Part shown: piece after piece, positions 386-57,215 of the stretch
Numbering within the stretch: the first letter of the stretch is position 1
How the letters are laid out: the number at the start of each line of letters is the position of its first letter
Assembly (NCBI GenBank): GCA_016946835.1
Contig: JACVTC010000013.1
Span: forward strand, 1,015,001 to 1,079,000
Source of the DNA: Neocallimastix lanati (nom. inval.)
Lineage: Eukaryota; Neocallimastigomycota; Neocallimastigomycetes; Neocallimastigales; Neocallimastigaceae
Length of the DNA stretch: 64,000 bases
Reading direction: 5' to 3'
Made by a program: the position numbers and the translations under genes
The notes under the pieces: generated by a model
Database searches by the model: none
Told to the model about the DNA's origin: nothing
The model's input: the letters and a program-made list of their open reading frames with translations, nothing else

Positions 386-3300
386 CGTTAAAAAAAAAAA
401 AAAAAAAAAAAAAAAGAAATAAATATCTAATATCTAAATAAGAAAAAAAAAATTTTTTTTTTTTATTACAATATATAAAATATTAATAATACTTTAAATC
501 ATCTTTATATATATTAAAAAAAGAATTAATCATATATAATTTTTAACAATATTAATATAACAATTTTTATTATATATATATATATTTTATTCAAATCATT
601 AAATATTTAATTTTAAATTATATTTTAATTTTTTTTTATTATTTCTTTATTAAGGCTCTTCCTAATGATATTGATTTAAGTATTTATCGTTGGGGAAATA
701 ATAATACCACACTTCATTTAGCATCATTCTTAGGAGAACGATCTATTATTAATAAAATATTAAATAAAGGAGAAAATCCTTCTTTTACTAATGATTTAGG
801 AAAAACTTCAATTGATGTTGCAGCAGATTATGAGCTTTCAGATTATTTGAACGAAATCAATGAAGAATTAATTGAGAAAAAAAGAGAAGAATTAAAAAGA
901 AAAGAAAGTTTACTGAATACCTTAAAAAAATGTGAAGATATTGAGACAACACTTAATCAGAATAAGCAAGAAAAATTAGCAGCTGAATCCAAAGTAAAAA
1001 TTGAAAACAAAGAAATAAATAATGAAAATAATAACAATAATACTAAAATAGAATCCATGAAAGCCATGGAAGAAAAGATAATAAAAGAAGAAATAATTAG
1101 TGATAATAATTCCGATAAAAAAAATGACAATAAAGATATTCAAAATTCTAATGAAACAATTACATGTGAGAACTCAAACCCTTTTGACTCAAATGTCGAA
1201 AGTTCTTCTAATAATACCATTAATAATACAAATGATTCAAATCTACAAATTAATTCAGGGGACAAAGATATTAAAGAAGAAATAAAAGAAGAAGAAATAA
1301 AAGAAGTAAAGGAAGAAATAAAGGAGGAAAAAAAGGAAGAAGAAAAGAAAGAAGAAGTAAAGAAAGAGACAAAAGAAGAAGAGAATAATGAAACGGATAA
1401 AAGTTCTATAGATAGATCCAAATTTTCAAATTTGATTGATATGGATATGATTAATAATTTAATTAATTCACAAGCTATATATATGAATGCTGATAATAAT
1501 ATACAAGAAGAAGAAGAAGAAGATGATGATGATGATGAAGAGGGAGAAGAGGAAGAGGATAATGAAAATATAGATGAATCAAAAATTAATATTAATATTA
1601 ATAAGAATACTAGTGATAATATGGAAAATAATAATAATAATAATAATAATAACAAAGACAATAAAAATAATAATATAGATTCTGTTATCTCAAAAGCTAA
1701 TACAGAAATTAACAGAAACAGCAATACCAATAATATTAAAGCAACTGTCGAAAAAATTAATTCAAACGGATCAAAACCAGAAGTGAGTAATAATAATATT
1801 AGAAATCAAATACCCACAGAATCGGTAGCCTCTAAAAAGAATATATTTGAAAATAATAATCTTAATCATGAAGTCAATAAAGTTAAGGAAAATAAAATTT
1901 CCTCAACCTCCTTTAATACTGCCAAAGAAAATTTTGCTAATAGTTCAAAATCTTATAATTCTTCTAAAGAATTCGATACCGTTAAAACAGAAATAATGGC
2001 TCAAAATAATAATAAAAGTATTAAATCTATTATTAATAACATAAATAATGCAAATGATAACAATAATAAATTACAAAGAAATGAAAAGAATGTAATTTTA
2101 GAAAAAGATGATACCAAGGTAACTATGACCAATATTAATAAAAATAATTATTTGGAAAAAGTAAAGGAACAACCAATAGAAAAATCAATTCAAAATTCAA
2201 ATGAAATTATTAGTAATAATAAAAATACTAATTCTCTTAGTAAAGCAATTTCAATAACAGAAAAGACACCAGATGAATATAAAAAAGGTCTTAGTGGTAG
2301 TATTAAAGAAGCAATATCTAAATATAATAATAGCAATAGTATTAATATCACACAAACTACTAATGAACCTATTAAGCTTCGTGAAACCATAAAAACTGTT
2401 AAAATAAATGAAAAAAGTGAAAATGGTAATGATCATATTAAATATTTTATATATATATAATATTTAAAATAATAATAAATTAATATTAATATGTATATAT
2501 ATTTAATAATAAATTTTTATTAATTAATTAATAATATTATATTTAATTTTATTTTATTATATATCCTGATATATTTGTTTATAATAATTATTTAAAATTA
2601 ATATTGATAAAATAAAAAAAATTTTTTTTCTTTTTAGTTGAATCCACTATTAAAAAGGATATCAAACCAAATGTAAATGAATTAAATGGTTCAGTTAAAA
2701 AAAGAGAAAGAGACATCTCAAAACTTATTCAGGCCTTTAATCAGACACCTAATTCATCTAGTGAAAATGCTAAAAATTCATTTTCAAAACAAAATATTAT
2801 TGCTAAAGAGACAACAGTCCCAACGTCATCGTCACCATCATCATTATCAACCTCAACAGAAAAAAAGATTAATAATATACCATCAACTACCGTATCTCAT
2901 ATTAATACTTTAAAATCTGCCATTGACAATAAATCGGAGCCAATTTCTCCTGAAAATAAATCAGAATCCATTTTAAATAAAGATAAACTTCACAAATCCA
3001 TAGAACCTTCCGGTAAAGGAAAAGAAATGAGTAAAGTACAATTATTAAGTTCGAAATTTTTATCCAATGTTGCTCAAAATACGGACACGGAAGTCAGCAA
3101 TAATACAAATGTTGAACCTGTTATTAAGAAAGTTGATGAATCCAAAAATATTAAGGCAGAAGAGCCAGTTTCATTGAAAACTAATAATAATATTACCGAA
3201 AAGGTAGAAATTAAGCCAAAAACTTCCTTTGAAAATACTATTTCATCAGATAACAAATTAAAAATTATTGAAAAACCTAATTTGAATATTATTAATAGAA

Positions 3301-6300
3301 AGAAATCTGAAAGTAAAATTGATGCTATTAAGAATTCTCTAATTAACAATATGAAAGAAGAAAAACCTAAAGAAAATATTAATATTAAGAACGGTAGTAA
3401 AATTGATGCCATTAAAAATTCACTAGCTAATAATAATAAAGAAGAAGAAAAGCCAAAGGAAAACATTGATATTAAAAACACTGTTAAGATTGATACTATT
3501 AAGAATTCACTATCCAATAATACTAAAGAAGAAGAAAAGCCCAAAGAAACCATTGATATTAAAAGTACCAGTAAAATTGATGCTATTAAAAATTCACTAG
3601 CCAATAATACTAAAGAAGAAGAAAAACCAAAGGAAATCATTGATATTAAAAGTACCAGTAAAATTGATGCTATTAAAAATTCACTATCCAATAATACTAA
3701 AGAAGAAGAAAAACCAAAGGAAACCATTGATACTAAAAGTACCAGTAAAATTGATGCTATTAAAAATTCACTAGCCAATAATACTAAAGAAGAAGAAAAG
3801 CCAAAGGAAACCATTGATATTAAAAGCACTAGTAAAATTGATGCTATTAAAAATTCACTAGCCAATAATACTAAGGAAGAAGAAAAGCCAAAAGAAAATA
3901 TTAATATTAAAAGTACTAGTAAAATTGATGCTATCAAAAATTCACTTACTAATAGTAAAAAAGAAACACAGAAGGAAGAAATAAGCAATGAAAATGAAAA
4001 CAAAGAAAAACCAGGTGAATCTTTATCTCCACAAATTCAAAAAGAAGAAGAAAAAGAAGAAGAAAAAGAAAAAGAAAAAGAAAAAACAACCACAAAAGAA
4101 AAAGAAAAATCTGTAAATAATTCTGAAATTCATGAGAATTTGAATGATATCAATGATAATACTACAATTTCTATTTCTGATCTTACATTGAATGAATCTA
4201 ATGAAGAAAACAATAAATTATCCAATTCTTCAAAGCTTAAAGAAGTAAATAACTCTCTAACTTATATACATTTATACTTAACTATTATATTATATGAAAA
4301 TATTAATTATTATATCAACTTTTTTATTCAAATAAATATTAATAATATATAAATATAATTATTTATTTATTTATATATATATATAAAAGAAATCTAAATT
4401 AGAAGATGATTACACTTCTGTAAGTAAAAATAAAATTATTTGTTTATTTATTTTTACTAATTAATATTTTTTTTGAATTAAATTAACAAATAAATAATAA
4501 ATAAATAACATATAATATATTTTAAATTATATCAATATATATAAATAGGATGTAAAGCCAGATAATGACTTTGTAAGTATATATATATATATATATGAAA
4601 TATTAAAAGAAAATAGAAAAAAAATATTAATATACATATATAATATTTGTATTATTCATTATTTATTTATATATATGTAAACATTATTTAAATCATTAAT
4701 TTTTAATAAATTTTATAATTACTTATTAAATTGATCTTATCATTCCAAAAGTCTTTACAATTTGATTCTGTATGTATTTTAAATATTAAAACATTTCAAA
4801 ATAATAAGACATTATTTTTTTTTTGGTTTAATACTTATCAATAATACTATAATAAATTTTTTTTATTGTTTTATTATATATATAGTTATCATTAGATCTT
4901 CCTACTATAGCATCAGTAACATTATCTTTAGATGAAATCTTAGTTGCTCAAGATATGAACTTTAGTTCAATGTTTAGTGACTTTGATCTCAGTAAAAGTA
5001 ATACGGATAGTCCAATAAAAGATGTAAAAGCATCTAATAATACAGATTTAGATTTATCAGATAACACTTTATACAATAAAACTGAAAGTAACGAATCCAT
5101 TAATAAAACGGGTAATTCTTTAAAGAAACCCCTGGAACAAAAAGAAATTAAAAGTCAGAATAAAGTTGAAAGGAAAATTGATGAAAATAAAGAAAATTTG
5201 GTTGAAACCTCTGTAACTAAAAGGGAAAAAGATAAAGAAGCTAATTTAAATAAAAATACTTTAGAAAAGGTAGTTCCAAAAGAAAAAATGATTAACAAGT
5301 TAGTTTCATCTGAAAAAGAAAAAGTAGTAGATCAGAATAGATTAAAGGAAGATACTTCACCTAAAAATGAAAGTAGTAAAGAAAAGGAAATTCAAAAAGA
5401 AGTTAAAAAAGAAATAGTTATAGATAAAGGAATTAAAAAGGAAGAAGAAAAAGAAATTCATGTGGAAAAGAAAATAGATTCAAGAAAAGAAGATAATGTA
5501 AAAAAAAGTAATTCTGAAGAGATATCTCAAAATAATAATGAAGATGGAAATAAAATCTCTATAGAAAGTCAACCAAAGACATCCGAAAATGATGAATCAT
5601 TATCCTTGGATCCAGAAAAACCATCTGAAATAGTTGAATCAGATAATAATAATAATGAGGCTGCTGTTGTTGAAAAACAAAAAGATAAACATTCCAATAT
5701 GGTATTAAAAGAAAAATTATATGATGAACAAAAGAATCATAATAAGATTGGTTTAATTAAAAGTGCAGATTTATTAAATAAAAATACAATTATTTCATCA
5801 ATTAAAAAGACCAAAACAAGACAAAAGGGAGTACAATTTAAATCTTCCTGGAGTGGTGAACTTGAATCAACTAAAAGAATGTCTAAAGATCATCTCAATT
5901 ACATTTCAACCTCTAAAGGAAACTTTATTATTAAATTGAATAGAATGGATATAAAGTCTACTTGTCCAGTATTCTTCTCTGGAAATTTTGAAACCGATGC
6001 CATGTATACCATGTTCTGTGAATTCAAATGTGATGATGAAGTTTACTACACTACTAAACAATACCCTATCCATGGCAATAGCCCAACTATTTCAATGAAT
6101 GAGGATATTAATATTCCATTAACCTACGATCAAAATAACTTAGAAATTAATGTTATGATGATTAAGAAGTCACCAAACTTTATGCCACCTCAATTTCTTT
6201 CAAAATCATCCAAAAATAATTCTTCCTCAGGCATGTCTACTCTAACACGTACCATGTCCCATTCTAAAAAAACTATTCATCATCTTATGTTCTGGAAGAA

Positions 6301-11500: not shown

Positions 11501-14500
11501 AACTTCTAATTCTACAGTATTATTATTTGGAATATCTTACAACAATTGTATACAATGAACTCAACTTTATATATATTTCAAACTTTCACCGTGGTGTCCG
11601 CCATTACAATAAATTCTATATGATATTCATTAATATACTCAATAATTGGTCAGTAAAAAAACTTTACAATTGTATCAGTAATTTATCTAGTTCTTTTTTT
11701 AATATCATCTTTTCAATAGTTAGAAAATTTTCACCATTATAAGGTTCTTATTTTATTATAAAAGTAAATGCTCTCAGTAGTAATACCTTTAAACAATTCT
11801 ATGATTTGTTAAATGATGGTCTTCATTCCTTTGTTAAAATTAACTCTAAAGAATGTAAAGGTTATTCAAATTCTAATGACTGCAAATCCAATTATAATAA
11901 AGTTAAAAAAATTAAAAAAAAAAAAACAAGAGAAAAATTAAATTTTTTTTTATATTCTCAGAGATTTCTATTCAAGTCATCTTTATTCTAGCTCTTCTTT
12001 CTTCAATTTATGCTCTAGCTGGAATATTAATAGTTAGAATTCTGAAAAGAGAGATGGAGTTATGTATTTAAATTCAGTATTTTAACCTGACCTGTATGTA
12101 TATACCTTCAGGAAACTGGTAATAGTAAGTTCCTCTCTAAATGGAACTCTCCTTCTATTTTTGATTACAATTCTGGTTTTCTTCATGCTAATTCCAAAAT
12201 CCCTGGAATAAGAGTTTTATATATTGGTGTTCATAATTTTTGTTCTTATGCTGATGAAAATGCCAACTACAATTATATTATATCAGTTAGTTCGACGTCA
12301 TTTTGGAATCAAAGATGTTCTATTGGCAATATCTACTTTCCTCAATATGGATGGCCTGAAGCTCGTTTAAATGCTTTCTCTAAAATAGAAAAATGTTTAA
12401 GTAGTCAGTGTATTATCAAAATTTCCATGATTGGACTGTTGCTAATCATACTAGTAATAGTATTACTAATTCTAAAAGTTCCAAATCTTCTTGCAACAAC
12501 CATATTATCTATAATAAAGCTATGATTCCTCATGTACATTTATCTTCTGCTTGCTCATTTGTAAATGATATTTCTGATCATTATCCTATCTTCTTATCTT
12601 GCAATAAGAATCTTTCAGATGGTTTTAATAAACCTAAGAAAACTATCAAATGGTCTAAACATATTTGTAGTACTCAGAATACAAATATACTATCTCATAA
12701 TTATTTTTCTGTTTTAGTAAATAATTTTGAATCCAAATTTGATGAAACATCAGCAGATGATATGGTTAAAGAATTTATTAATACTTCAATCAGTGTTAGT
12801 AAAGAAATTAAACTAAGACTATTGGGCAAATGTTTTCCTCAATAATACTCGTAATCCAAATACATGGAATATAAATAATCCTATTTCTCTCTCTGATATA
12901 AGAAATACAGTACTTTTTATGAAGCGTAACAACGCTCCTGGACCTGATGGTATTCCTACTGAATTTTATAAAGCTTTCTTTTGTAATTATGATCTAGAAG
13001 AAAGATTTCCTTCTGCTGGCGAATGCCATGAAATTATTTTTAACAAAATTTGGGAAGGTTCTTTTCCTAATGAATGGAACTCTGCATCTATTGTTTCTAT
13101 TCCAAAGAAAGGTGATCTTTTCTAATTGTAATAATTAGAGAGGTATCTCTCTTATCAATGTCGGTCTTAAAATTCTAACAATAATAGTCACAGATAGAAT
13201 CTCTAAATATGCTTTTGAACATAATTTTATTAGACCTGAACAATTTGGTTTTCTCAATCATGAAGAATGTATCCGTCTCTTCATTTCTATTAGAGAAATT
13301 TTTCAAAGAAGAAAATTTAAAGGTAAATTCACATATGTAGTTTTTCTTGATATGAAAAAAAGCATACGACTCTGTTCCCATTTTCAACATTCTTATAAAA
13401 AATCTTTCACCTTGGTATCCGTGACAAATGTTTTGATTTCATTTCTAATCTCTATCTTACTTCTAAAGCTAGAGCTCGTTACCTTGATATGTTATCAAAT
13501 AAATTTCCTGTTCATCGTAGTTATTAGACAAAGTTGCCCGTTATCATCAATTTTGTTTAATTTATTCATTAATGATATTTTAAACAATTGTGATAAATAT
13601 GGTGTTAGTATTTGTAATAAAAAATGTTGTGGTGATCTTTTTGCTGATGATATTGTTCTCATAGGGCCTAATGAAAGAAAAATAAAGGCTCTACTTCGTC
13701 ATATTTTTTGTTTAGCTAATAAAAATGAAATGTCTTTTGGTATCAATAAATGTGATACAATAGTTATTAAACCTTTAAATTTTGTTTCATATCCTGTTTA
13801 TGAAGAACCTACATTTTACCTTGGTATGTATTCTATCCATATTTATTTAGGTATCTCCTTCAGTAATGATCTCTCCTTTGAGCCTATTATCACTTATATG
13901 AATTCTAAAGTTAAAAAATCCTTATTTTCTTTCTCTAGTTTTTTATCCAATAATAAAGTTCCATTAACTTTTAAAAGATCTATCATTCAATTATATATTA
14001 TTAGCAAAGTATTATATTTTGCTCCACTTTTAGGTTCAAACAAAAACAATTCTAAGAATGTACAATCTTTAATTAACACTGCATTGTTGTAGTGTATTAA
14101 TTCTGACTCCTCGAACATGGAAGATTACCTTAAACATTAAAAAGAAGAAAAAATGTAAAAATTATATCAAAAGGGAACTCAACGGTTATAGTGTTTATGT
14201 CTTATCTCATGATCTTTAAGTATTTCCAATTGCTGGCTTTTGTACTTCTTTTCAAGTAAAATGCTTTTGCAAATGGAAAAATTCTAAATGTATTATTAAA
14301 GATAATCAACCATATCCCTTCCATACCACATTATTCTTGGTCAAAAAAATCACTGATGCTCTACAAGAAAATTAGGAAAAAGAATATCACTAAATTCAAA
14401 GATATTATTGAATCATATTGGTCTGATATTGGCAAATTGAAAGGAATTAAAGGTATGAATTACGATAACTTCAAATTTATAAATACTAGAAATTTTTTCA

Positions 14501-14850
14501 AGCTCAGCCTTGAATACCCTTATTTCAGTTTTGGTTTTAACTGGATCTTAAGATTAAGAGCTGGTTACAAATATAATACCACTATTGCAATTAGATATGG
14601 TAGAGTTTCTGACAATTGTCCTAAATTCTGTCCTTGCTGTGGAAAAGGTAAACAATCTTTTATTAATTGCATATTTGAATACTCTACCTTTACTTTGTGT
14701 CCATGTAAATCTAAAGATTTACATCGACAAAAACGATGACCTTTTTATTTTATTAGCAAATAGAGAGTTTAGTAGATACCACATTATCTATATTAAAGAT
14801 GTTACTTCTTTGTTTTATTATTTTAGATTTAACTGGTGATCATGTTACTA
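11500..14850 (+). pseudogene. Degenerate non-LTR retrotransposon (LINE) with APE endonuclease and RT
   Basis: The plus strand can be read in several broken frames as one LINE. From about 12.1 kb come endonuclease-like pieces ending in SDHYPIFLS near 12574-12600, the C-terminal motif of APE-type endonucleases. RT follows: NAPGPDGIPTEFYK (12930), SIPKKGD (13095), the EQFGF block (13240), FLDMKKA with the first catalytic Asp (13340), the LFINDIL block (13560) and FADDIVLIGP (13640), the catalytic FxDD box. The C-terminus keeps GFNWILRLRAGYKYN and a Cys-rich knuckle (CPKFCPCCGKGK, about 14617). Frameshifts and stops separate the pieces, so it is inactive. Its 5' limit is uncertain and no poly-A tail or target duplication is evident. 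Confidence 0.75.
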
Positions 14851-31911: not shown

Positions 31912-34417
<2,506 letters not shown>

Positions 34418-35989: not shown

Positions 35990-36238
35990 TGTTAAAAATA
36001 AAGTTCAAATAGTATAGTAATTTATATTATATATATTTAAATCTCTATGTATGTATGTATGTATGTGGCTTAATACATATAATATTAATTTGAAGTTATT
36101 GTGTAATTGATGTAGTAAAAAACTAATACATGTAATTAGTATAAAATAAAATAATAATTTAATAATTAAATAAAATAGAACTTAAATAAATAAAAAAAAA
36201 AAAAATAAAAAAATAAAATAAAATAAAAATAAAAAACA
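35990..36238 (+). repeat. 5' LTR
   Basis: Begins tgttaaaaata and ends aaaaaaca, with a (TATG)n stretch inside. Base-for-base the same as 41754-42002 on my reading. Confidence 0.9.
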
Positions 36239-36240
36239 AA

Positions 36241-36256
36241 AGATTAAGAGTCTCAT
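36241..36256 (+). promoter_or_regulatory. Primer binding site, complementary to the tRNA-Lys(CUU) anticodon arm
   Basis: agattaagagtctcat is the exact reverse complement of the anticodon-arm sequence atgagactcttaatct, known for tRNA-Lys(CUU) in many eukaryotes (about tRNA nt 26-41). It starts 2 nt after the LTR terminal CA. An internal tRNA match, in place of the usual tRNA 3' end, fits the half-tRNA priming known for Drosophila copia and yeast Ty5, which use initiator tRNA-Met. Confidence 0.65.
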
Positions 36257-36264
36257 TAGCAGTA

Positions 36265-37305
36265 ATGAGTGAAAAAAGGAATATAACGAATACTGTTGAA
36301 GAAACAGTAAATACATTAAACCAAATAAATACAGTAAACATAGCAAATAAACCAACTACTACAAAACACCTATTAACATCAAATAACTACAGACTATGGT
36401 TAACGGATATGGATCTTTTATTAGTTATTAATGATGTTGATGACTATGTTTACGAAGAAAAGATAAAAGTTATAAAGAAAAACAAAATAGCTAAAGAAAA
36501 TCTAAAGAAATATAAAAAGGTTAGAGGTTGTGATGACCTATATTATGAAAAAGACGTCACAAAAGAAATGATAAAGCTAGATTCTTTAGCTAAGCATCTG
36601 ATAAACAATAGCATATCAGATGAAATCAAAATTAAATTAGATTTTCAAAGATCTAGTGCCTATCAAATTTGGAACATTTTAAAAGCAAGTAATACTAGAT
36701 CAAATGAAGAAAGGAAATTAGAATTAAAAAATAAGTTAAAGAATATGAAATATAACAAAGAAAATGATATTTCATTATTTATTGAAGAAATGAACAACAT
36801 TTTCAATGAATTAAGTAGTCTTGAAATGGAAATCAGCGATGAGAAGAAATTTGAATATCTTTATCTCGCTCTTCCATATGAAATAACATTGGAAGTTAAC
36901 ATAATGGACCACGATGGGAAATGGGAAGATGTTACCAAATGTCTAAAAAAGAAGGTCCCTAAGCTAAAATATCTTAAGGAACTTAGAAAAGAAAATAACC
37001 ACAAGAATAATACAGTAATAAACGTTAACTCAATGACCAAGAAAAATAGATTCACACCAAGAAACAACAGAGAAAAAAAAAGATGTTATATATGTAACAA
37101 GCTAGGACATATAGCACGGGACTGTTGGCATAATGAGAAGAACAAAAGAAAAAAGAACAATAATATCAAAGCCAACAACGCAAGTATAAACAAAGAGGAT
37201 GGGTATTGCGAATTTGCTGATGCTCAAATAAGCCTCGAAGATTACAATTCAGATGAAGATATCCAATCCTCATACTCCGTTCGACCGAGGCGTGGACGCT
37301 ACTAA
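36265..37305 (+). CDS. Copia Gag
   Basis: 346 aa. The N-terminal part matches copia-type gag: LTSNNYRLWLTDMD, then the UBN2-like region with NKLKNMKYNKENDISLFIEE and EYLYLALPYE. A CCHC zinc knuckle (CYICNKLGHIARDC) lies at about residues 274-287 and a basic stretch surrounds it for RNA binding. The start is the first ATG after the LTR, 9 nt past the primer site. The ORF is intact and overlaps the pol frame by 74 nt, so pol is probably expressed by +1 frameshifting. Confidence 0.9.
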   Translation: MSEKRNITNTVEETVNTLNQINTVNIANKPTTTKHLLTSNNYRLWLTDMDLLLVINDVDDYVYEEKIKVIKKNKIAKENLKKYKKVRGCDDLYYEKDVTKEMIKLDSLAKHLINNSISDEIKIKLDFQRSSAYQIWNILKASNTRSNEERKLELKNKLKNMKYNKENDISLFIEEMNNIFNELSSLEMEISDEKKFEYLYLALPYEITLEVNIMDHDGKWEDVTKCLKKKVPKLKYLKELRKENNHKNNTVINVNSMTKKNRFTPRNNREKKRCYICNKLGHIARDCWHNEKNKRKKNNNIKANNASINKEDGYCEFADAQISLEDYNSDEDIQSSYSVRPRRGRY

Positions 37306-40300
37306 AGCAGAAAATAACATGCCGAGACAAAACCTCAGTTATTATGTGACTGCCCCGTCAACTAAAGCGAAGCTACCAAGTAATATAGTCAGTTGGACAA
37401 TTGACTCCGGAGCCACCTATCACATGACAAATGCATTATCAAGTTTAATAGATAAGATAAGGTGTGAAGAAATTATCCAATTCGCTGACGGAGGTACAGT
37501 TACTGCTACGTACAAAGGTACGTACGTAGGCTATATTAACAATAATGAAATTACATTACGAAATGTATTATATATTCCTAAATTCAAAAGAAGTTTGTTG
37601 TCAATAGACAACTTAAGTGAAGAAGGTTATAAAACAATATTTTACAATTTTAATAATAAAAATTTAGTTACCATTTACAACAAAGAAGGCAAAAGGATAT
37701 TTACTACCAAATCTAATAAATCCAAAATATATAAAGTATGGACTTTCAAAAATAAAATAGAATATAATAGGGACAACAACAAAAAGACTATTACATGTGA
37801 CAATATTATAAAAGCTTTTAACACAGAAAACATGGAGCTATGGCACCGCCGTCTTGGCCACTTTTATATAGATAACATTAAAGAAAAATTAAATAATATA
37901 AACATACAAAATAAATGTATAATATGTGCGTCCAAGATGAGAAATAAACCTTATAACAAAGCAAGAAACAAATCAAAAGAGCCGTTTGAACTTATACATA
38001 TGGATACAGTGTCATCCCTAGATAGCTCCATATATGGAAATAAATATTTCTTAAGTATATTAGATGATTATACCAGGTACGGATGGGTCTTTTTTATGAA
38101 CTCAAAAGCCGAAGTGTTCAATATTTTCAGAAAATGGTATAAGAAAGTCACCAACATTTTCAACAAAAATATTAAATATATACGAACCGACAATGGTACT
38201 GAGTTTACAAATAATAACTTTAGGAAATTTTGTGAAGAAAATGGTATTGAACAACAATTTTCAATACCTTACAACCCACAGCAAAACGGAAGAGCCGAAC
38301 GTTTTCAAGAAACCCTCATTTATAACGCCACCGCCATGCTCAAAGACGGTAAGCTAAATCATAAATATTGGGAAGATGCTGTAAGGACAGCAAATTACAT
38401 TCATAATAGGTTACCACATAATGGTAACAACAACAAAGTGCCTTTTGAGGAATTATATCAAGAAAAGGTCGATTATGAAAAGTTTAGAGTATTTGGTTGC
38501 CAAGTTTACTTTTATATCCCAAAACAATTTAGGCGAAAATTCAACGGAACCTCCCTTCCTGGAATATTTTTAGGATATGATGATAAAAATCCAACAGCCT
38601 ACATAATATATGATACTACAAATAATAAAATAGTCCTTTCAAGGACAGTTGAATTCTTCGAAGATACCCCTGGTAATATTTCCGCACCTTCTACAAGACC
38701 AGAAATATATAACTTTGAGGTTAATATGGAAGAATACGATGAAAATAACAAAAATACAGTATTACTCCAAGACTATAATAACAAAAATAAGGAACATGAA
38801 AATAAAGAGACAACAGAAAATAGAGAAGAAAATAAAAATAATAACAATATAAATAATAATGATAACTTAAATAATTTAAATAATAATTATTTAGAAAATA
38901 ATAATTTAAATAATAATAATAATATAAATAATAATTATCCAAATGATAATAATTTAAATAAATATAATTTTAATAAAAATTATTTAAATGATAATAATAT
39001 TAATTTTACTTATAGTCCTAATCCAAATAAAAATTTTCCCCAATCAACCAATATAATTGACCCATATAAAAATTATAATAATTATAATATTTTACCTTTA
39101 AATAATTTAAATAGTAATATAAGTAGCAATTTACCTTTTGCAGAAAACTTAAATCCGGCCATTTACAATTATAATGCTGGATTTATAAATCCTAATTTAA
39201 ATTATTTAAATAAAAATAATTATATTCAAAATGAAAATTATAATAATTTTCTAAATGAATATAAGGGTCATTTATATTTAAATGATAATAATTTAAATAA
39301 TAATTATATTAATAAAATTATAAATTATGAAAATAATGCTCAAAATTCATCAAATTCAGGAAATTTAAACAATAAAAATTCAGAAGATAATTCTCAAGGT
39401 AAATATAATTTAATTAACAACATAAACAATAAAAATGATAAAATGGAACAATCCATACATAATTCAAATTGTAATGATAACGTTATGAATGGAAATTCAA
39501 GTTCCATTGATAATAATTATGTAAAAAATAATTATATTCCAAATAATAATTTATATAAAAATAATTTTAATACAAAAATGAGAATTAATAATTTATATGA
39601 TGGTCAGTCGAATATGAACGATGTCCAACGTATAAATAATAATTCTAATATAAACAAAGAATTAAATTCAAATATAAACAATGAATTAAATTCAAATATA
39701 AACAAAGGATTAATTTCAAATATAAACAATGAATTAAATTCAAATATAAATAAAGAATTAAATTCAAATATAAAAAATGAATTAAATTCAAATGTAAGCA
39801 AAGAATTAAATTCAAATGTAAACAAAGAATTAAAATCAAAAGTAAACAAAGAATTAAATTCAAATATAAAAAATGAATTAAATTCAAATGTAAACAAAGA
39901 ATTAAATTCAAATGTAAACAAAGAATTAAATTCAAATGTAAACAAAGAATTAAATTCAAATGAAAATAAAGAATTAAATTCAAATGAAAATAAAGAATTA
40001 AATAAATTAGATATGAATAATAAATCAAATAATTCTACAATATCAAATATTAATAATGATAAAGAAACACAAGATAAAACAAATAATAAGAAAACAAGTA
40101 AACGTAAAGGAAAGAGAAAACTTGATTCAGAAACAAAACCTGAATCAAAGAAATTAAAATCATCAAATTTAAAGGACAAGAACGTTAAACGGAAAGGTAA
40201 GAGAAAACTTGATTCTGAATTAAAACCAGAATCAAAGAAAATAAAATCATTTGATTTAATGGATATAATAGAAGATAATTTTTCTTTATTATCTACAAAG

Positions 40301-40705
40301 GAGGAGCTGTGTGAACCCTATAATTATCCTGATATATTCAATAAAATTGATAAAAATGAATGGTTACAAGCAGTCAAGGAGGAATTAAACAGCATGAAAA
40401 ACTTAAAAGTTTATAAGAAAGTTGATAGGGTACCCAAGGGTAGTAATATAATAACACCAAAGTGGGTGTTCAGATACAAATATAATTCAGACAATAGTAT
40501 AAATAAAAGAAAAGCAAGACTGGTAGCCAGAGGTTTTACACAAAAACAAGGCATTGATTATAATGAGACGTTCTCGCCCACATTGAAACAGGACTCTTTG
40601 AGAATAGCAACTGCTATTGCATCAGCCAATAACTTTAATATATATCAAATTGATATAAAATCAGCCTACCTAAACGCTACACTAAACGAAGATGTGAGAC
40701 TTTAA
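37232..40705 (+). CDS. Copia Pol, N-terminal part (protease, integrase, first half of RT), interrupted
   Basis: The frame is open from 37232 (+1 relative to gag). In order: aspartic protease WTIDSGATYHMTN (about nt 37395); the integrase zinc finger H-H-C-C (LWHRRLGHF ... CIICASKM); the integrase core with three acidic residues (MDTVSS; RTDNGTEF; NPQQNGRAERFQE); an Asn-rich linker of over 450 residues; and the RT start (EWLQAVKEELNSM, WVFRYKYN, ARLVARGFTQKQGIDYNETF, QIDIKSAYLNATLNEDV with the first catalytic Asp). The frame stops at 40703-40705. Family comparison shows that the following RT segment, including the YGLKQS-type block, is missing, so this is a deletion and not a simple stop. Pol here is non-functional. 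Confidence 0.88.
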   Translation, partial: ASKITIQMKISNPHTPFDRGVDATKAENNMPRQNLSYYVTAPSTKAKLPSNIVSWTIDSGATYHMTNALSSLIDKIRCEEIIQFADGGTVTATYKGTYVGYINNNEITLRNVLYIPKFKRSLLSIDNLSEEGYKTIFYNFNNKNLVTIYNKEGKRIFTTKSNKSKIYKVWTFKNKIEYNRDNNKKTITCDNIIKAFNTENMELWHRRLGHFYIDNIKEKLNNINIQNKCIICASKMRNKPYNKARNKSKEPFELIHMDTVSSLDSSIYGNKYFLSILDDYTRYGWVFFMNSKAEVFNIFRKWYKKVTNIFNKNIKYIRTDNGTEFTNNNFRKFCEENGIEQQFSIPYNPQQNGRAERFQETLIYNATAMLKDGKLNHKYWEDAVRTANYIHNRLPHNGNNNKVPFEELYQEKVDYEKFRVFGCQVYFYIPKQFRRKFNGTSLPGIFLGYDDKNPTAYIIYDTTNNKIVLSRTVEFFEDTPGNISAPSTRPEIYNFEVNMEEYDENNKNTVLLQDYNNKNKEHENKETTENREENKNNNNINNNDNLNNLNNNYLENNNLNNNNNINNNYPNDNNLNKYNFNKNYLNDNNINFTYSPNPNKNFPQSTNIIDPYKNYNNYNILPLNNLNSNISSNLPFAENLNPAIYNYNAGFINPNLNYLNKNNYIQNENYNNFLNEYKGHLYLNDNNLNNNYINKIINYENNAQNSSNSGNLNNKNSEDNSQGKYNLINNINNKNDKMEQSIHNSNCNDNVMNGNSSSIDNNYVKNNYIPNNNLYKNNFNTKMRINNLYDGQSNMNDVQRINNNSNINKELNSNINNELNSNINKGLISNINNELNSNINKELNSNIKNELNSNVSKELNSNVNKELKSKVNKELNSNIKNELNSNVNKELNSNVNKELNSNVNKELNSNENKELNSNENKELNKLDMNNKSNNSTISNINNDKETQDKTNNKKTSKRKGKRKLDSETKPESKKLKSSNLKDKNVKRKGKRKLDSELKPESKKIKSFDLMDIIEDNFSLLSTKEELCEPYNYPDIFNKIDKNEWLQAVKEELNSMKNLKVYKKVDRVPKGSNIITPKWVFRYKYNSDNSINKRKARLVARGFTQKQGIDYNETFSPTLKQDSLRIATAIASANNFNIYQIDIKSAYLNATLNEDVRL
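39652..40010 (+). repeat. 24-bp tandem coding repeat in the copia Pol linker
   Basis: About 15 in-frame copies of an 8-residue unit (NKELNSNV and variants NNELNSNI, NENKELNS) lie between integrase and RT. The preceding 800 bp is nearly all Asn/Leu/Tyr codons. It is unusual for a copia polyprotein and resembles the Asn-rich style of host proteins. Confidence 0.9.
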
Positions 40706-41730
40706 ATGAAAAACTTATAAATATTGGTTTTAATAGACTTCGAAGTGAACCATGCATTTACGTTAAAATGAATGATCGGAATAAAATTATTTGTCTTCTT
40801 ACAGTTTATGTAGATGATATATTATTAACAGGTAATGAACATGAAGTATATAAAACAAAACATTTATTAAAAAATTATTTTAACATAACTGATATAGGTC
40901 CTGTGGATACAATCATTGGCGTTAAATTTATAAAAGAAAAGGACGGCTATCTATTGCAACAACATAAATATCTAGAGAATATATTAAGAAAATTTGATAT
41001 AGATAAGTATAAAATATCTTCAAATATGATACCAGAAGAAAATGAAGAATTAAGAAAAAGAAAATTCAATATCACGAAATACCAACAAGCTATAGGTAGT
41101 TTATTATATCTCGCGATATGTACTAGACCGGATATCTTATTTCCTGTGAATAAAGCTTCCAGAAAAGCCAAAGATCCAAATTATGAAGATTGGTATAATG
41201 TCATCAAAATATTTAGATACCTCAAGGGAAAACCTAATTATGGTTTAAGGTATTCAGGAAACTTAAAATTAAATGTTTATGTAGATGCAGATTACGGAGG
41301 AGATGTAGAGTCTAGAAAATCTACTACGGGTTATATAATTAAAATAGGTTCAGGACCTACCTCATGGTATTCAAAATTACAACACTGTGTATCTGTATCT
41401 TCTGCCGAAAGTGAATATTATGGAATAAATGAATGCGCTAGACATTGCTTGTGGTATGAAAATGTATTAAATGAATTAAAATTAAATTGTAATTGTATAA
41501 CAATAAATGTAGATAATAAAGCTGCCATTTATAATTGCGAAAATGAAACTATTAACCCAAGATCTAGACACATAGACATAAAATATCACCACACAAGAGA
41601 TCTTATTAAAGAAAATAAAATAAAACTAAAATATATAAAGTCTGAAGATAATCTAGCCGATGGTTTTACAAAGTATCTTAATACATATCTATTAAATAAA
41701 TTTAGAGATTCTATTATGGTGAAGTGTTAG
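40699..41730 (+). pseudogene. Copia Pol, C-terminal part (RT palm and RNase H), out of frame
   Basis: Open in a different frame from pol. It begins TLNEKLINIGFNRLRSEPC, then the catalytic YVDDILLTG (40807), an RT thumb, and RNase H with NVYVDADYGGD, SSAESEYYG, the DNKAAI block and RSRHIDIKYHH, ending KSEDNLADGFTK. The first ATG is at 40768, but the homologous sequence starts at 40699. It was once continuous with the upstream pol frame, and all its motifs are well preserved. Confidence 0.88.
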
Positions 41731-56386: not shown

Positions 56387-57215
56387 TTAGAAGCGGAGCT
56401 TTTGGAAGAACCACTTGTTCTTACCACTCTTGTATCTATTATTAAAATATCAAAAATATTTAAATTAAATTTCATATATATAATTTTTTGTAAATAACTT
56501 TGTTAATACTTTGAATAAAATAGTAATTATAAATAAATATTATAAAAGTTTACCTTTCTTCGAAAGCCTTCTTGATAACCTTACGGGTTTGAATTCTTTG
56601 GCTTGGGTCCTTGAAAGCATCAAGAGTAACGTTTTGCTTTAAATCGACATCAAGACTGTATCTGGTTGGCATGATGTGGTTGAAGTTAACGACCTTGACA
56701 AATGGCTTGACCTTAGAACGCTTGGCAACAAGCTTTTGACCCATGGACTTGGTAACCTTTAATGGGTATCTTTCAATACCAGCAACAATGGCGTGTGGGT
56801 ATGGACGTTCCTTGGTACCTTCATCATAATGTATTTAAAATAAATGCAAACAAATAAGATGCAATATTGGTTAAGGAAATATTTAATTGTAATTATTTAT
56901 CTGTATTATATTTTTTGTATTATTTTTTATAGAGTTAATATTATAAAAAAGTAATCATTTTTTATATATATAAAAAGGATATTTTTAACAATGACGGCCT
57001 TCTTTCCGGCGAAACGACCTTGTAAGATAAGAACAACCTATATTAATAATATTCAAATAAATCTCATTAATAACATTACATTATAGATTAAATTAATCAA
57101 AACCTATTCATCCATCCATCATTTTAAATTTCAATTTATTTAATTTAATAATTCATATACATTTAATATTATTTATTATTCCACACACCTTTCCTGGCTT
57201 GAGGAACTTGACCAT
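56387..57215 (-). CDS. RPL27: 60S ribosomal protein eL27
   Basis: Four exons on the minus strand: 57215-57189, 57037-56983, 56830-56554 and 56435-56387, giving 135 aa (the family is about 136). The protein begins [20 protein letters not shown] and ends [10 protein letters not shown], both diagnostic of eL27. It continues through a KOW motif and the [16 protein letters not shown] segment. It is a large-subunit ribosomal protein. Codon use is far more C/G-ending than in neighbouring genes, as expected for high expression. The second intron does not follow GT-AG and reads as U12-type AT-AC; the other two are GT-AG. Confidence 0.96.
56831..56982 (-). other. U12-type AT-AC intron in RPL27
   Basis: On the minus strand the intron starts ATATCCTTTTT (from 56982), matching the U12 donor consensus ATATCCTTT. 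It contains TTCCTTAAC at 56878-56870, the U12 branch-site consensus, and ends in AC (56832-56831). Splicing here joins GTTAAAA to ATTATGATGAAGG and restores the conserved VKNYDEGTK of eL27 exactly. The branch A to AC distance is about 40 nt, longer than the usual 10-20. No GT-AG alternative keeps the conserved residues. Confidence 0.88.

Follow-up and report, generated by a model that had tools for sequence, protein, structure and literature searches.

Introns removed by the minor spliceosome carry the consensus words ATATCCTT at the donor and TTCCTTAAC at the branch site, and the spacing between their branch site and acceptor is regarded as tight; AT-AC introns of the U2 type show an ATAAGT-like match to U1 at the donor. 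In 1998, Incorvaia and Padgett reportedly found that donor activation in minor splicing depends on U6atac pairing with the donor. The review literature, in the portion available, places the optimum between branch site and acceptor at 11-13 nt (PMC3584512), and approximately 26% of human minor introns are given as AT-AC in the accessible part of PMC10639083. Among the matches listed, the latter was the sole paper on the minor spliceosome of Neocallimastigomycetes, and the same part of it records minor introns and minor snRNAs in this group, including Piromyces finnis and Neocallimastix californiae. Ribosomal protein genes of fungi are also known to carry U12 introns, as excerpts of PMC2846911 attest. 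Supplements and most subscription papers lay outside the search, and among the matches that it listed no title dealt with the eL27 intron, the tract distances or the U6atac box considered below.

The gene for eL27 (RPL27) occupies the minus strand of the window, by which we mean the whole 64,000-nucleotide stretch of Neocallimastix lanati DNA that was analysed, lying within a contig of 1.89 Mb (C35), and comprises four coding exons. Exon 1 (57189..57215), encoding MVKFLKPGK, is followed by a GT-AG intron of 151 nt (57038..57188; GTGTGTGG...ATATAG); exon 2 (56983..57037) closes with the first base of a split Asn codon, and intron 2, of 152 nt, runs from 56982 (first base) to 56831 (last) with AT-AC ends. 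Exon 3 (56554..56830, 277 nt), a further GT-AG intron (56436..56553, 118 nt, GTAAAC...AATAG) and exon 4 with the stop codon (56387..56435) complete the gene. Within intron 2, the donor ATATCCTTTTT (56972..56982) matches RTATCCTTT, and the branch site TTCCTTAAC (56870..56878) matches TTCCTTRAC; the latter is followed by a tract of 39 nt (56831..56869), 51% T, in which the terminal AC, part of the closing ATAC (56834-56831), is the sole AC or AG. Removal of the intron, which is in phase 1, restores the conserved eL27 sequence including VKNYDEGTK, and the spliced product matches Pfam Ribosomal_L27e (E 2.5e-38) and KOW (E 5.2e-07). A public protein whose cluster includes Anaeromyces robustus is 100% identical to this product over 135 aa, which gives the predicted splicing indirect support; the next-best source, among the best 120 of 3386 matches, was Spizellomyces punctatus, at 81% identity. 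We reasoned that intron 2 is very probably a functional U12-type AT-AC intron of this anaerobic gut fungus, spliced out by the fungus's own minor spliceosome.

Elsewhere in the window, neither a tRNA nor an Rfam match at Rfam's own cut-offs was found. A Copia-type retrotransposon (36217-41730, plus strand) carries integrase and RVT_2 domains in overlapping frames, as well as a gag-like zinc-knuckle frame recognized by eye; several broken frames at 12091-14739, on the same strand, form a LINE-like remnant with an RVT_1 match (E 2.1e-15). On the minus strand, 33346-33723 encodes a RIB43A domain (E 7.2e-31), presumably of a flagellar microtubule protein, which fits a zoospore-forming fungus and, taken with the eL27 protein match, points to the Neocallimastigomycota; a long open frame at 2616-4352 (plus strand) encodes a low-complexity protein in which several near-identical repeats of approximately 28 residues (KIDAIKNSLxNNxKEEEKPKExIDIKST) were recognized by eye.

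Only one other eL27 locus was found in the genome, on contig C17, with 95% protein identity over residues 28-125; its exon 1 is not visible because the bases 5' of its exon 2 soon read N. It too is interrupted by an AT-AC intron, placed at the codon that is split in the window gene; this intron is 162 nt long, as against 152. Exon 2 is identical between the two genes (55/55 bases) and exon 3 agrees at 266 of 277 positions, whereas the introns agree at 106 of 147 aligned bases. The C17 intron has the same donor ATATCCTTTTT, and its branch region and acceptor are preserved; the conserved segments are the first 16 bases, TTCCTTAACCAAT (with one mismatch further on) and TTTTAAATAC.

The preliminary description had supposed that the organism keeps a working minor spliceosome and had pointed to U11, U12, U4atac and U6atac as its expected traces. 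Genes for all four were found along their full length with Rfam models, which supports the retention of a minor spliceosome, presumably a working one. U6atac matched at two loci (57.4 and 56.4 bits, cut-off 33), U12 at 56.8 bits (cut-off 53) and U11, barely above its cut-off of 39, at 40.5 bits; U4atac scored 47.2 bits, below the Rfam cut-off of 53, with an E value of 4.8e-5. None of 14 control genomes was matched by any of the four models. The U12 candidate preserves GUAAGGA for branch-site binding, and it is with this region that the branch site of eL27 intron 2 pairs. An exon matching PF18036, which we take to be the U11/U12-25K domain, is present as well (36.2 bits, cut-off 22.8), although its matches in PDB are weak (1v2y, E 0.022; U11/U12-25K 8r7n, E 0.034).

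The U11 gene probably spans approximately 270 nt (L007:1367-1636, contig C50 of G000), and the Rfam match omits most of two model stretches. The start of that match, AGAAUAGG, would mispair with the donor; an altered U11 was considered on this account and rejected, AAAAAGGGCUUAUG being found 134 nt upstream. The GCUUAUG of AAAAAGGGCUUAUG pairs with CGUGAGC, immediately ahead of the Sm site (-8.6 kcal/mol, versus -4.1 for the short form), and the chance expectation of the 11-mer AAAAAGGGCUU is 4e-5 per 200 nt, and we infer that the long form with AAAAAGGGCUUAUG as its 5' end is the true U11. In this form, donor positions +4 to +11 can pair with the 5' end AAAAAGGG through seven standard pairs and one G-U.

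One result is at odds with removal by an ordinary minor spliceosome of this genome: in the U6atac copies that were recovered, the match to donor positions +6 and +7 has been lost. Both copies (L002:1501-1649 and L003:1501-1646, on contigs C246 and C588 of G000) read GUGUUGUAUGAGCCGAGAGACAGUUGGCAC, where the Rfam consensus reads GUGUUGUAUGAAAGGAGAGAAGGUUAGCAC; GCCG replaces AAGG, such that the box that should pair with donor +4 to +8 reads GCCGA where AAGGA is expected, and the changed box as a whole is GCCGAGAGACAG in place of the standard AAGGAGAGAAGG. In what we take to be the standard pairing register, A16-U4 and G15-C5 remain, C14/C6 and C13/U7 are unpaired, G12 may wobble with U8 and A11 may pair with U9. 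The duplex predicted for this U6atac and the eL27 donor reaches -2.8 kcal/mol, in another register, versus -7.1 for the Rfam consensus. That both copies have lost the bases for pairing at donor +6 and +7 is possibly new.

It is quite possible, though we incline against it, that the two copies are simply decayed duplicates, a standard U6atac being absent from the assembly or missed, and that the minor spliceosome is ordinary in everything except its long branch-to-acceptor tracts. The copies share approximately 1.2 kb, with 11 of 150 bases differing just upstream and 17 of 855 (approximately 2%) downstream, and thus represent one recent duplication, that is, a single witness to the change and not two independent ones; the assembly contains N stretches, and the Rfam search of the genome scored the best 46 of 4700 candidates. 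Against decay, that search gave these two matches, and a pattern that left the changed positions free and tolerated up to 2 mismatches returned the same two loci and no third copy. (The pattern also gave no match in viral and prokaryote contig collections, which says little.) Positions 1-53 are identical between the copies, which is weak evidence at this divergence. Strong stem II pairing with the genome's own U4atac also speaks against decay. It is predicted at -24.8 kcal/mol for the two together, versus -16.4 when the U6atac consensus is combined with the genome's U4atac; the reverse mix, at -25.3, is not worse. In support of removal by the minor spliceosome, the U4atac/U6atac cofold as a whole gave -44.3 kcal/mol, while 200 shuffles of the U6atac part only averaged -34.0 (sd 2.8) and reached -41.0 at the lowest. 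Against such removal, stem I is weaker than in the consensus (-7.6 versus -11.5 kcal/mol). For U6atac/U12 helix I the prediction is -6.1 versus -5.3 for the consensus, via a different set of four pairs.

Whatever the state of U6atac, splicing of the segment might fall to the major (U2) spliceosome, which would treat it as a GT-AG intron with shifted borders or as an AT-AC intron of the U2 type. Introns 1 and 3 of the gene are both GT-AG, and the branch-to-acceptor tract is long and T-rich, as would suit such removal. To compare the options, introns with GT, GC or AT donors and AG or AC acceptors, of at least 40 nt, were enumerated between introns 1 and 3, and those leaving a product of 110-170 aa were kept, yielding 86 candidates. 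The AT-AC intron at 56982-56831 ranked first (score 583 versus Spizellomyces eL27), followed by a runner-up at 568, whereas the best-scoring GT-AG alternative that keeps the frame reached 519 and removes VKNYDEGTK, a stretch present with 1 or 2 changes in the five other fungal eL27 proteins compared. Moreover, the donor ATATCCTTTTT lacks an ATAAGT-like match to U1, and the second eL27 gene retains both the U12 donor and the branch site. We therefore regard U2 removal as highly improbable. The coordinates given for the AT-AC intron in the preliminary description proved exact, its in-frame return of VKNYDEGTK is borne out by the spliced product, and its estimate of approximately 40 nt between branch site and acceptor agrees with the 39 nt measured after TTCCTTAAC; comparison of gene and protein sequences argues, with high confidence, that the eL27 AT-AC intron is genuine.

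The motif words are of little help by themselves. In the window, TCCTTAAC occurs 2 times versus 1.31 expected and RTATCCTT 8 times versus 8.96 expected. The whole assembly (199 Mb, 762 contigs, approximately 19% G+C) was searched for the pair, with the branch word starting 54-114 nt past the start of the donor, and gave 17 matches versus 23 for the reversed pattern that served as control. Since the pair is not enriched over its control, it proves nothing alone in so AT-rich a genome; as far as sequence can carry it, the case for the intron is carried by the reading frame and coding context and by the second eL27 gene, not by the motifs. That the eL27 segment is an ordinary AT-rich stretch bearing motif-like words by chance can hardly be credited, for although the words singly and as a pair are no commoner than expected, they fall exactly at the frame-restoring border within a conserved gene and recur in the second copy despite its diverged intron body.

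Seven of the 17 matches, two of them the eL27 pair, were accepted because they interrupt coding sequence whose frame is restored upon removal as AT-AC introns; they were selected by eye on the basis of coding context together with reading frame, except that L015 was taken on its frame only. Read through unspliced, all seven contain stops in every forward frame. Six of the ten matches that were not accepted have one or more stop-free frames on one strand or the other and are thus probably exonic, and the remaining four (L012, L016, L023 and L024) were assigned to neither class. The five further introns (L015, L017, L020, L021 and L025) lie in one unnamed gene and in RasGEF-like, IFT/WD-type TPR, eIF2A and CDC24-like genes. 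In two cases, eIF2A (E 3.3e-16) and the IFT-type TPR (E 3.7e-05, narrowly below the cut-off), a Pfam match spans the junction with equal lengths on the two sides; the exon matches of the RasGEF-like, CDC24-like and IFT-like genes fall under the curated cut-offs, only eIF2A lying above, and L015 gave no Pfam match. For L021, an AG lying 12 nt beyond the AC would likewise keep the frame, at the cost of 4 residues; the AC was preferred on inspection by eye, a choice backed by the equal lengths of the eIF2A match on the two sides. Six of the seven introns are in phase 1, and L017 is in phase 2.

Because the search pattern fixed the donor and branch consensus, the free observations in this set are the acceptor ends and the distances. 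All seven introns end in AC. Counted from the base after TTCCTTAAC through the final intron base, the tracts are 39 and 52 nt in the eL27 pair and 17, 32, 34, 41 and 89 nt in the others, every one of them longer than 13 nt; 11-13 nt, which the 39 nt of the eL27 intron also exceed, is an optimum and not an absolute requirement. The idea, already voiced in the preliminary description, that the long distance reflects local rules is thereby supported. The T content of the tracts ranges from 35 to 74% in what is an AT-rich genome. Together they contain one internal AG, the fourth base past the branch word in the 89-nt tract, and no internal AC; shuffles gave an expectation of 9.95 for AC and AG combined (P 5e-5) and of 5.2 for AC (P 0.0013), although the acceptors were chosen for frame, and selecting ACs by that criterion may tip the result toward the first one. 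The near absence of AC and AG fits a scanning mechanism that would stop at the first AC. The long tracts (17-89 nt) are possibly new, and the proposal of a long-tract variant, made from sequence, rests on these seven introns.

Two further classes were sought and discarded. A strict search for the GT-type motif, aimed at GT-AG minor introns, gave 3 matches versus 1 for its control, none of them intron-like in composition and open frames, and a search with longer donor-to-branch distances gave 4 versus 1, none of which was accepted (L033 being placed in neither class). The conjunction of seven introns ending in AC with no intron-like GT-type match under the strict search may also be new.

The intron with its elements, their recurrence in the second gene, the four snRNA matches, the 25K-like exon and the tracts almost free of AC and AG are all read directly from the genome. 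Given expression of the snRNA genes and splicing as drawn, both of which we infer, U11 would read the donor of the eL27 intron, U12 would read its branch site, and the acceptor would be the first AC met from the branch site, 17-89 nt off and not at the usual 11-13. A bolder version of this scheme, which we put forward tentatively and consider rather doubtful, is that roles have shifted in the anaerobic gut fungi: the donor would be defined almost wholly by U11, with U6atac making a different or much weaker contact that dispenses with pairing at +6 and +7; GT-AG minor introns would be lost or nearly so; and the acceptor would be the first AC within approximately 90 nt of the branch site. If true, a lineage whose working minor spliceosome breaks both rules, donor pairing by U6atac and the short branch distance, would be a natural experiment on what that spliceosome needs. 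Annotators working on early-branching fungi should then allow for AT-AC introns whose 3' tracts are long, which could escape a search that assumes one short distance.

Compared with the U12-type AT-AC introns of animals and plants, the introns described here are alike in the donor ATATCCTT, the branch site TTCCTTAAC, the AT-AC ends and phase 1, and in their complementarity to U11 and U12; they differ in their tracts, 17-89 nt in seven introns against an optimum of 11-13 (PMC3584512, in the portion available), and in that the strict GT-type pattern gave three matches here, none intron-like. The Neocallimastigomycetes of PMC10639083 belong, to judge by the protein match and the low G+C, to the same fungal group and have minor introns and minor snRNAs; the accessible part of that paper names species without a gene, a U6atac sequence or a branch distance. 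The excerpts of PMC2846911 describe minor introns in ribosomal protein genes, fungi included, with R. oryzae carrying one in multiple gene copies, but the genes are others, the introns of R. oryzae S13 and Phytophthora L31 are GT-AG, and eL27 is not named in them. Judged by these parts of the two papers, the eL27 intron is not unprecedented and is less novel than first thought (PMC10639083, PMC2846911). In itself it is a further case of the known U12 introns; it is the long tracts and the altered U6atac box that set this group apart.
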